Assembly (NCBI GenBank): GCA_024280455.1
Contig: JAJRQC010000028.1
Span: forward strand, 1-64,000
DNA: 64,000 nucleotides
Source: Deltaproteobacteria bacterium
GTDB lineage: Bacteria > Desulfobacterota > Desulfobulbia > Desulfobulbales > Desulfobulbaceae
Direction of reading: 5' to 3'
Under the pieces are notes generated by a model. It ran no database searches, was not told the origin of the DNA, and was given only the letters and a program-made list of their open reading frames with translations. Below, one piece after another: positions 7,849 to 9,221 of the stretch. How positions within the stretch are numbered: position 1 is the first letter of the stretch; each line of letters starts with the position of its first letter. The position numbers and the translations under genes are program-made.

Positions 7849-7940
7849 TTTCGCTGAGGTTATCATCTTTATTAAGGGTTTCTTTTATTGGGAGTGATTG
7901 GAGAAACGGGATTGTTCCGCCGGAATTTCAGTATAGGATA

Positions 7941-7985
7941 ACGGGGAGTTAAGTGATTTCCTTAACTCCTCGTTTCTGTTGTTTG
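7941..7985. terminator. Bidirectional stem-loop terminator
   Basis: A 13-bp stem (7941–7953 with 7961–7973, one G·U pair) and 7-nt loop, followed by a T-rich stretch. It sits between the glycerate kinase gene and the oppositely oriented metal operon, where convergent transcripts must end. Confidence 0.75.
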
Positions 7986-8041: not shown

Positions 8042-8311
8042 TTAACCGGAAATGGGCTGTCCCAGCCCCGCATTTCGCAGGGTTGTCTCATCCGGGCCTC
8101 GGCCGGTACAGCATCCGGCAAGTTTCCCGTTGATCGCTACTGCCGGGACAGAGCGGACATTGAGCTCCCTTGCCCTGGTCGCTCCCCTGATGTCTTTCAT
8201 GTCGACAATCTCGACTTCACATGAAGGACAGGCCAGGCCTTTTACCCTTGCCACTGTTTCTTCACAGAGCGGACAACCTGCACTGAAAACTTCGATTTTC
8301 CTGGTGTTCAT
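8042..8311 (-). CDS. Small cysteine-rich thioredoxin/glutaredoxin-like protein
   Basis: An 89-residue protein with a thioredoxin-like pattern: strand KIEVFSAGCPLCEETV with a CPLC motif at about residues 11–14, a second CPSC pair near 26–29, the cis-proline region VRSVPAVAINGKL, and a further CC near residue 69. The start at 8311 is supported by GAGG about nine bases upstream. The gene follows the MerC-like gene with a one-base gap, so they are probably translationally linked. Family knowledge suggests thiol–disulfide exchange. With a metal transporter and a MerR regulator it may reduce or receive a thiophilic metal, which is inference. Six cysteines in 89 residues could also bind metal directly. 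Confidence 0.85.
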   Translation of the reverse strand: MNTRKIEVFSAGCPLCEETVARVKGLACPSCEVEIVDMKDIRGATRARELNVRSVPAVAINGKLAGCCTGRGPDETTLRNAGLGQPISG

Positions 8312-8312
8312 A

Positions 8313-8741
8313 TCAAGTACCTCGTTTGTTGTGGTTGGTTGTGTACGGCACATCCAATGGCTTAACATGGATATCGACGGTACCTTTCCGAGGCCAGGCA
8401 TTCCATATTGATGCCGTTATCAGAAGAATTGCTCCTCCATAGACCAACGGGTTTGAGTTCAGGTAGAACTTACCCGTCAGAATTGCAGCAGAAGAAAAAA
8501 TGCCTATCAGTAAAGGGCCGTAACCACGTCTGTTGGGTGCCCTGTAACTAAAGGTGACAAGTGTAACCAAGAGAAAGAACAGCGTCAGCGGCAAAAGGTA
8601 CTCATCACCGATTAAAAAGTTGAGCCCGACCGAGCTTAAGAGTCCTGCATAGGCAGGCCAGCAAGCCGGTCAGGTCAGTCTCGGCAGTAAGGCAATACCC
8701 ACACCGGGAACTGCGCCTAATATTTTTCCTGGAAAGGACAT
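8313..8741 (-). CDS. MerC-family metal transporter, probable selenoprotein (in-frame TGA)
   Basis: Read from ATG at 8741 (GAGGAG five bases upstream), the frame continues through one TGA at 8670–8672 to a TGA stop at 8313, giving 142 residues. The internal TGA is codon 24 in LPRLT-U-PACWPAYAGLL, exactly where MerC-type mercury transporters have the first Cys of the membrane Cys-X2-Cys metal site. The sequence on both sides aligns in one frame with that family, and the rest encodes about four membrane helices. I therefore infer selenocysteine at residue 24. A hairpin can form just after the TGA (CCTGC/GCAGG), but its small loop lacks the usual G, so the SECIS call is not secure. A shorter start at 8594 would lose the metal site. 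Confidence 0.75.
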
Positions 8742-8833
8742 TAAATCTCCTCAGTCATTATTGTCAATTATTGCTCCTATTATCGGGCAGCTCCTGAGAG
8801 GACCGGCCCCTGGGCAGGCGTTGGTTATTTCTC

Positions 8834-9148
8834 TCAGACCTGCTTTGATCCGCTCAAGGTCTTGTATCTTTTTTTCCACTTCGATAAATTTTTTTCAGCC
8901 TGTTCCTTTATCTCCGTACAGGTGGTATCCGGGGCCGCTCGCAGGTGGAGAAGCTCTTTAATTTCCTTGAGCGAGAATCCCAGATTTTTTGACCGGGTGA
9001 TAAACAGCAGTTGCTGCAGGCTTTCCGGTGAATAGACCCGGTATCCGGATTCATTGCGGGCGGGCGGCGGCAGCAATCCCTTTTTTTCGTAAAAGCGAAC
9101 AGTCTCTACCGTGATACCTGCCTGCCCGGCTACTTTGCTGATTTTCAT
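8834..9148 (-). CDS. MerR-family metal-responsive regulator, frameshifted near the C-terminus
   Basis: The start MKISKVAGQAGITVETVRFYEKKGLL is the winged-helix DNA-binding domain of MerR-type regulators; a dimerisation helix follows. In the present frame the protein ends at 8834. One extra base in the A7 run (plus-strand T7 at 8889–8895) would extend it to a stop at 8751, with a tail containing a Cys and SCPII, like the metal-binding loop of MerR/ZntR relatives. That 132-residue version is family-normal. So the gene is either broken, mis-sequenced, or decoded by slippage on A7. A MerR-type promoter lies upstream, and the MerC-like gene starts 10 bp after the restored stop. Confidence 0.8.
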   Translation of the reverse strand: MKISKVAGQAGITVETVRFYEKKGLLPPPARNESGYRVYSPESLQQLLFITRSKNLGFSLKEIKELLHLRAAPDTTCTEIKEQAEKNLSKWKKRYKTLSGSKQV

Positions 9149-9189: not shown

Positions 9190-9221
9190 AGTATAACCCC
9201 TGAACCATACTTCAGGGTCAA
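9190..9221 (-). promoter_or_regulatory. MerR-type promoter and operator of the metal operon
   Basis: On the minus strand, TTGACC (9216–9221) and TATACT (9190–9195) are separated by 20 bp, the over-long spacer that MerR regulators correct by twisting DNA. The spacer holds a perfect dyad, CCCTGAA (9211–9217) with TTCAGGG (9198–9204). Transcription would start about 35 bp before the merR start codon, so the operon regulates itself. Confidence 0.85.

Follow-up and report, generated by a model that had tools for sequence, protein, structure and literature searches.

In the window, i.e., the whole stretch of 64,000 nucleotides of DNA that was analysed, a gene for a MerC-like membrane protein of 142 residues is present on the minus strand at 8313..8741, with selenocysteine (Sec) predicted at residue 24. 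The frame runs from the ATG at 8741, upstream of which there is a ribosome-binding-like GGAG, to the stop at 8313-8315, and it is open except for one TGA at 8670-8672 (minus strand), the predicted selenocysteine codon, which occupies the first position of a Cys-x2-Cys pair (UxxC) in the context UPACWPAYAGLL. When the TGA is read through, residues 13-114 match the Pfam MerC family (PF03203) with E 9e-9 and 36.3 bits, which is above the gathering cut-off of 27.6 bits, so that the single frame broken by one TGA with family-like sequence on both sides, as described in the first-pass annotation, is borne out. The cut-offs of the NCBIfam MerC equivalogs NF033784 and NF010318 are not reached (32.7 vs 140 bits and 31.2 vs 170 bits, respectively). 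Searching up to E 10 gives no match of the protein to the MerT family (PF02411), while the MerT of a Geobacter locus (L047) does match PF02411. A comparison of the window with G003, its closest relative, gives a dS of 0.72 and a dN of 0.075 for the 17 codons that precede the TGA, and a dS of 0.79 and a dN of 0.051 for codons 17-94 after it, so that dN/dS is about 0.1 upstream and 0.06 downstream; judged from these substitution rates, the MerC protein is kept by purifying selection on both sides of the TGA. Since the same open reading frame with the same TGA codon recurs in 13 other genomes of the host order and dN/dS does not exceed about 0.1, the occurrence of a MerC gene with an in-frame TGA is confirmed far beyond chance. 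It is noted that standard pipelines would be likely to misannotate such a gene, either truncating it at the TGA or placing its start downstream.

The merC gene is the middle one of three genes that are read in one direction. The N-terminal part of merR, encoding a MerR-family regulator, lies in frame at 8834..9148 (minus strand) and the C-terminal part, containing the Cys-x8-Cys of the metal-binding triad, lies in another frame at 8754..8888 (minus strand), the frameshift being near an A-rich stretch. In the relatives merR is intact in a single frame, and the frameshift in the window may be either a real mutation or an artefact of the assembly. The profiles of MerR, CueR and ZntR match the MerR proteins about equally well, each below its cut-off; the proteins retain three conserved Cys, and about eight residues separate the last two, which is the pattern of soft-metal sensors. 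Upstream of merR, at 9190..9221 (minus strand), there is a MerR-type promoter consisting of TTGACC, 20 bp with the dyad CCCTGAA/TTCAGGG, and TATACT. Together with the same architecture in seven other loci, this gives eight loci having a TTGACy hexamer, exactly 20 bp containing a dyad, and a TATxxT hexamer, an arrangement that is typical of MerR-controlled promoters. The third gene of the operon, at 8042..8311 (minus strand), encodes a thioredoxin-like protein (Thioredoxin_3) with CPLC and CC motifs; across the loci the CPLC is kept, and so is the CC motif where the sequence is complete, and no in-frame TGA was seen in the thioredoxin-like genes of the Sec loci. An inverted repeat with a T-rich tail, reported on the plus strand at 7940..7974, separates the operon from the convergent gene and is a possible terminator, being a consensus match only.

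The comparison of loci indicates that this gene arrangement is conserved. Among the 14 loci that have the TGA-containing gene, merR-merC-trx is complete and in one direction in 12, with the window counted and its merR frameshifted; of the other two, G003 has all three genes with trx cut by the contig end, and in G036 trx is likewise cut and no merR was detected. The version of the operon with a Cys-containing MerC is widespread, with both partners present within 3 kb in 71 of 89 loci, and in Geobacter argillaceus (L047) it is followed by genes for a CopZ-like protein and MerT. Moreover, in 34 of the 89 Cys loci (e.g., L009, L012, L014, L017 and L025) a CPN-type thioredoxin-like domain precedes MerC in frame. 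The domain of L017, which is the one that was scanned, matches the DF (seleno)protein family, which earlier work had presented as a hypothetical protein that has no conserved domains.

A close homologue of merC is found in 11 of 146 related genomes, with the own genome included, and each has exactly one internal stop, which is TGA. A profile search of the class adds three more TGA carriers, giving a total of 14 that belong to at least five families of one order and include a one-contig genome (G170). In all of the 14 merC genes of the host order the TGA is at the identical codon, and no sense codon was found at the site among the close homologues in the order, the homologue in G223 being a weak match only. 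By contrast, in all of the 89 MerC loci outside the order, of which 80 are from GTDB genomes of many phyla and nine are good matches in the phylum, the codon at the site is TGC or TGT, although it should be noted that the search of the GTDB collection is tilted to the Cys forms because the query peptide carried C, while the whole-genome searches read through stops and are hence unbiased. Thus, the alignment column contains either Cys or TGA and nothing else, which agrees with the earlier claim that the TGA replaces the first Cys of the membrane Cys-X2-Cys pair. In a quick maximum-likelihood tree on 146 columns, a branch supported at 96% SH-aLRT separates the Sec forms from the rest, and as they form one clade, a single change from Cys to Sec would suffice. 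That it occurs in several families of a single order shows the Sec form to be a stable variant of the putative metal transporter. Note also that the Sec merC of one locus (L128, G156:C239) seems to carry a frameshift in its N-terminal part and is intact from PRLL-U onwards.

The machinery for selenocysteine insertion is present in the own genome, where the searches give selB with 372 bits and selA with 635 bits, together with a tRNA-Sec having the UCA anticodon (selC) and two selD genes (L113 and L114, at G000:C104 and C59), each with its own in-frame TGA. All of the four genes that the first-pass annotation had suggested looking for are therefore found, and its reading of residue 24 as selenocysteine is supported by these comparisons. 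In the other carriers the tRNA-Sec is above the cut-off in 12 of 13, with the exception being a genome that is 79% complete. A third SelD-like match, on C33 of the own genome, is split and has no stop.

Downstream of the TGA, the predicted mRNA contains a hairpin, AGCUC-GGUC-GGGCU with an outer pair formed in some species (8622..8637, minus strand), that is a candidate for the apical part of the SECIS. In the window, the five-pair stem is at 8636-8623 and the GGUC loop is at 8628-8631; the hairpin lies about 36 nt and the loop about 38 nt after the TGA. When the 14 Sec genes are aligned without gaps downstream of the TGA, columns 40-47 (UCGGUCGG) are the same in all of them, with a C-G pair closing the GGUC tetraloop, and the stem has five pairs, becoming seven in ten species. 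All of the 14 Sec genes, and none of the 89 Cys genes, have the GGUC loop at exactly this place on a stem of five pairs or more. The codons within the hairpin are frozen, with Ser being TCG and Val being GTC in 14 of 14, vs 9 of 71 Ser codons being TCG and 31 of 82 Val codons being GTC in the rest of the Sec-merC genes. Moreover, the Cys homologues mostly have Leu at the position of this Val, so that the Val itself looks driven by the RNA. Compensatory changes, all in third codon positions, are present at columns 39-48, where C-G becomes U-A in four species, and at columns 36-51, where C-G becomes G-C in two species. The covariation of the stem amounts to six compensatory cells, a value reached in none of 500 shuffles and far above those of slid versions, with the shuffle counts being optimistic because the Sec sequences are related to each other.

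Based on this comparison, the GGUC-loop hairpin is likely to be the SECIS of Sec-merC. The bacterial SECIS model has a G in the first two positions of the loop, a loop of 3-9 nt and a spacing of 16-37 nt (PMC13188914). The hairpin resembles the bSECISearch model, as given in that paper, in having a small apical loop starting with GG and a stem of 5-7 pairs, and in lying in the coding region after the UGA; it differs in its spacing from the TGA to the loop, which is 38 nt, or 37 nt if the closing C-G is counted as loop, as the model allows, and is thus at or just past the upper limit of 37 nt. In E. coli fdhF, by contrast, GGUC is much closer to the UGA. A search of Rfam gave no match on the hairpin, and RF00031 matched in none of the genomes, a silence that is uninformative because the controls were silent too. 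What is offered here is therefore a conserved candidate SECIS with an unusually long spacing, which is open to testing.

Other pairings were also considered. It had been noted at first reading that a hairpin without the usual G in its loop may follow the TGA, and such a hairpin, CCUGC-CUAU-GCAGG, does exist at columns 16-29 (8644..8657, minus strand); the conserved hairpin, however, is a different one, lying further downstream and having GGUC in its loop, and it is this one that provides the SECIS-like element sought after the TGA. The upstream hairpin has one compensatory pair, which is near-forced because the third bases of the Pro-Ala-Tyr-Ala-Gly codons pair by the code, and with no G in its loop it is probably not the recognition part. 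It seems to be mostly a by-product of the PAYAG codons and may form a lower part of the SECIS. A long-range UGACC/GGUCG stem around the upstream hairpin is as invariant as the GGUC-loop hairpin, with which it is mutually exclusive, and may form instead of it, but the majority of its variable pairs do not hold in a large number of the species.

The same region bears on the possibility that the TGA is a true stop or a regulatory switch, giving a product of 23 residues unless Sec is available, with the hairpin and the U-rich stretch acting as a terminator or attenuator. A terminator scan does flag the GGUC hairpin with its U-rich tail (8636-8623), but its matches are no commoner than in shuffled sequence, and the tail, which the conserved Phe-Leu codons account for, is weak in two of the loci (L095 and L096). 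Considering also that the rest of merC is under purifying selection, and that none of the close homologues from the order has TGG, TGC or any other sense codon there, we regard this possibility as very improbable. Still less credible is that the TGA reflects an error in sequencing or a gene in decay. The frameshift of the neighbouring merR in the window assembly would fit with it, but a TGA shared by 14 independent genomes, including the one-contig G170, together with the conserved RNA element and the low dN/dS, argues strongly against it; as the TGA is conserved across 14 species, error and pseudogene are ruled out.

We propose a model in which the downstream GGUC-loop hairpin in the mRNA directs the insertion of selenocysteine at the TGA (8670-8672). 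The product would be a four-helix membrane protein of the MerC family with the Sec-x2-Cys pair in the first helix region, and the MerR-controlled operon would produce the small thioredoxin-like protein along with it. In the model, the selenol-thiol pair would take up or pass on a thiophilic metal ion, with Hg(II) being the first candidate, and the thioredoxin-like partner may either accept the metal or keep the Sec-Cys pair reduced. The whole explanation, i.e., that the TGA is read as Sec by means of the hairpin and that the protein is a MerR-induced transporter of a thiophilic metal, most likely Hg(II), is given a probability of about 0.85. Points that count against it are the spacing at the edge of the SECIS model, the invariant alternative pairing, the low scores with the NCBIfam MerC equivalogs, the lack of a mercuric reductase above the cut-off and the frameshift in the merR of the window. 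The exchange of TGA and Cys, the SECIS-like element, the Sec machinery, the operon and the promoter are established by comparison, while the insertion of Sec, the binding of metal and the role of the partner are proposed on that basis. The transporter function and the metal of Sec-MerC are inferred from the family and the operon context, and the assignment of U24 and C27 as the metal site of a MerC-like carrier would follow by homology. It is known that mercury transport by MerT and MerE needs the cysteine pair of the first helix (PMC5715351). The AlphaFold model of Sec-MerC (mean pLDDT 72.5) has four main helices with a break at about residues 18-27 that holds the Sec, and a fold search of the PDB with it gave nothing meaningful.

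The main alternative is that the protein is a selenoprotein in which the Sec-x2-Cys pair forms a redox pair with the thioredoxin-like partner, making it a membrane thiol/selenol oxidoreductase. UxxC is a common redox motif of selenoproteins (PMC13188914), the partner with CPLC and CC is encoded directly downstream in nearly all loci, and the in-frame CPN-type domain before MerC in the 34 Cys homologues also speaks for this reading. However, the regulator is of the MerR type with the Cys triad of metal sensors, MerT adjoins the Cys operon in Geobacter, and Pfam assigns the protein to MerC. On balance we consider the oxidoreductase unlikely, while giving it a clearly greater chance than the readings with a stop or an error.

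It is useful to compare the protein with the known systems. Like the MerC family (PF03203, with Tn21 MerC as an example), it has a match over the whole domain, four predicted helices and a CxxC-type pair near helix 1. It differs in that it has Sec for the first Cys and scores far below the NCBIfam equivalog cut-off, and in that its gene is accompanied by a thioredoxin-like gene and does not lie in a merTPA operon. A putative mercuric transport selenoprotein MerT (PF02411) was catalogued in 2022 (PMC9312934) and in 2026 (PMC13188914, with C/SxxU). Like Sec-MerC, it is predicted to be a small Hg transporter and has its Sec in a pair spaced by two residues, but it belongs to another Pfam family and has Sec at the second position (C/SxxU) rather than at the first (UxxC) as in MerC. 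The SAO system and further Sec proteins related to metals (SaoB, SaoC, SaoL and SaoT; PMC13188914) are similar in that Sec is proposed as a metal ligand and a thioredoxin-like partner is present; they differ in their gene set and in that the partner of Sec-MerC is a Cys protein, and no match to a Sao family was found among the proteins scanned. In the catalogues of 2022 and 2026, which were checked by keyword only, the 2026 selenoproteome (PMC13188914) gives no MerC entry by keyword, and the deep-Sep paper does not mention a Sec MerC. Occurring in at least 14 related species, the Sec MerC would enlarge the set of known selenoprotein families, and it suggests a role of selenium chemistry in the handling of mercury-like metals.

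Mercury and other soft metals are held more tightly by selenols than by thiols, and a transporter in which Sec serves as a ligand would therefore be a rare non-enzymatic use of selenocysteine. It is also noted that hgcA, for mercury methylation, is above the cut-off in five of the 14 Sec-MerC genomes, namely G003, G011, G022, G166 and G170 (L163-L166), so that a link of Sec-assisted metal uptake to the formation of methylmercury is directly testable. In the own genome of the window neither hgcA nor mercuric reductase (MerA) is found above the cut-off. With a little less than even odds, we suggest that Sec-MerC represents an unlisted selenoprotein family in which a selenol-thiol pair in a membrane helix region binds and transports Hg(II) or a different soft metal under the control of MerR, and that in some hosts it occurs alongside hgcA and might supply its substrate.

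Finally, we note that a second merR is present elsewhere in the own genome (L159, G000:C34, about 18.1-20.6 kb), followed by an open reading frame for a CopZ-like protein with an in-frame TGA in the context GRUC. This reading frame resembles a known selenoprotein family (GxUC), and it is followed in turn by a C-terminal MerA-like piece.
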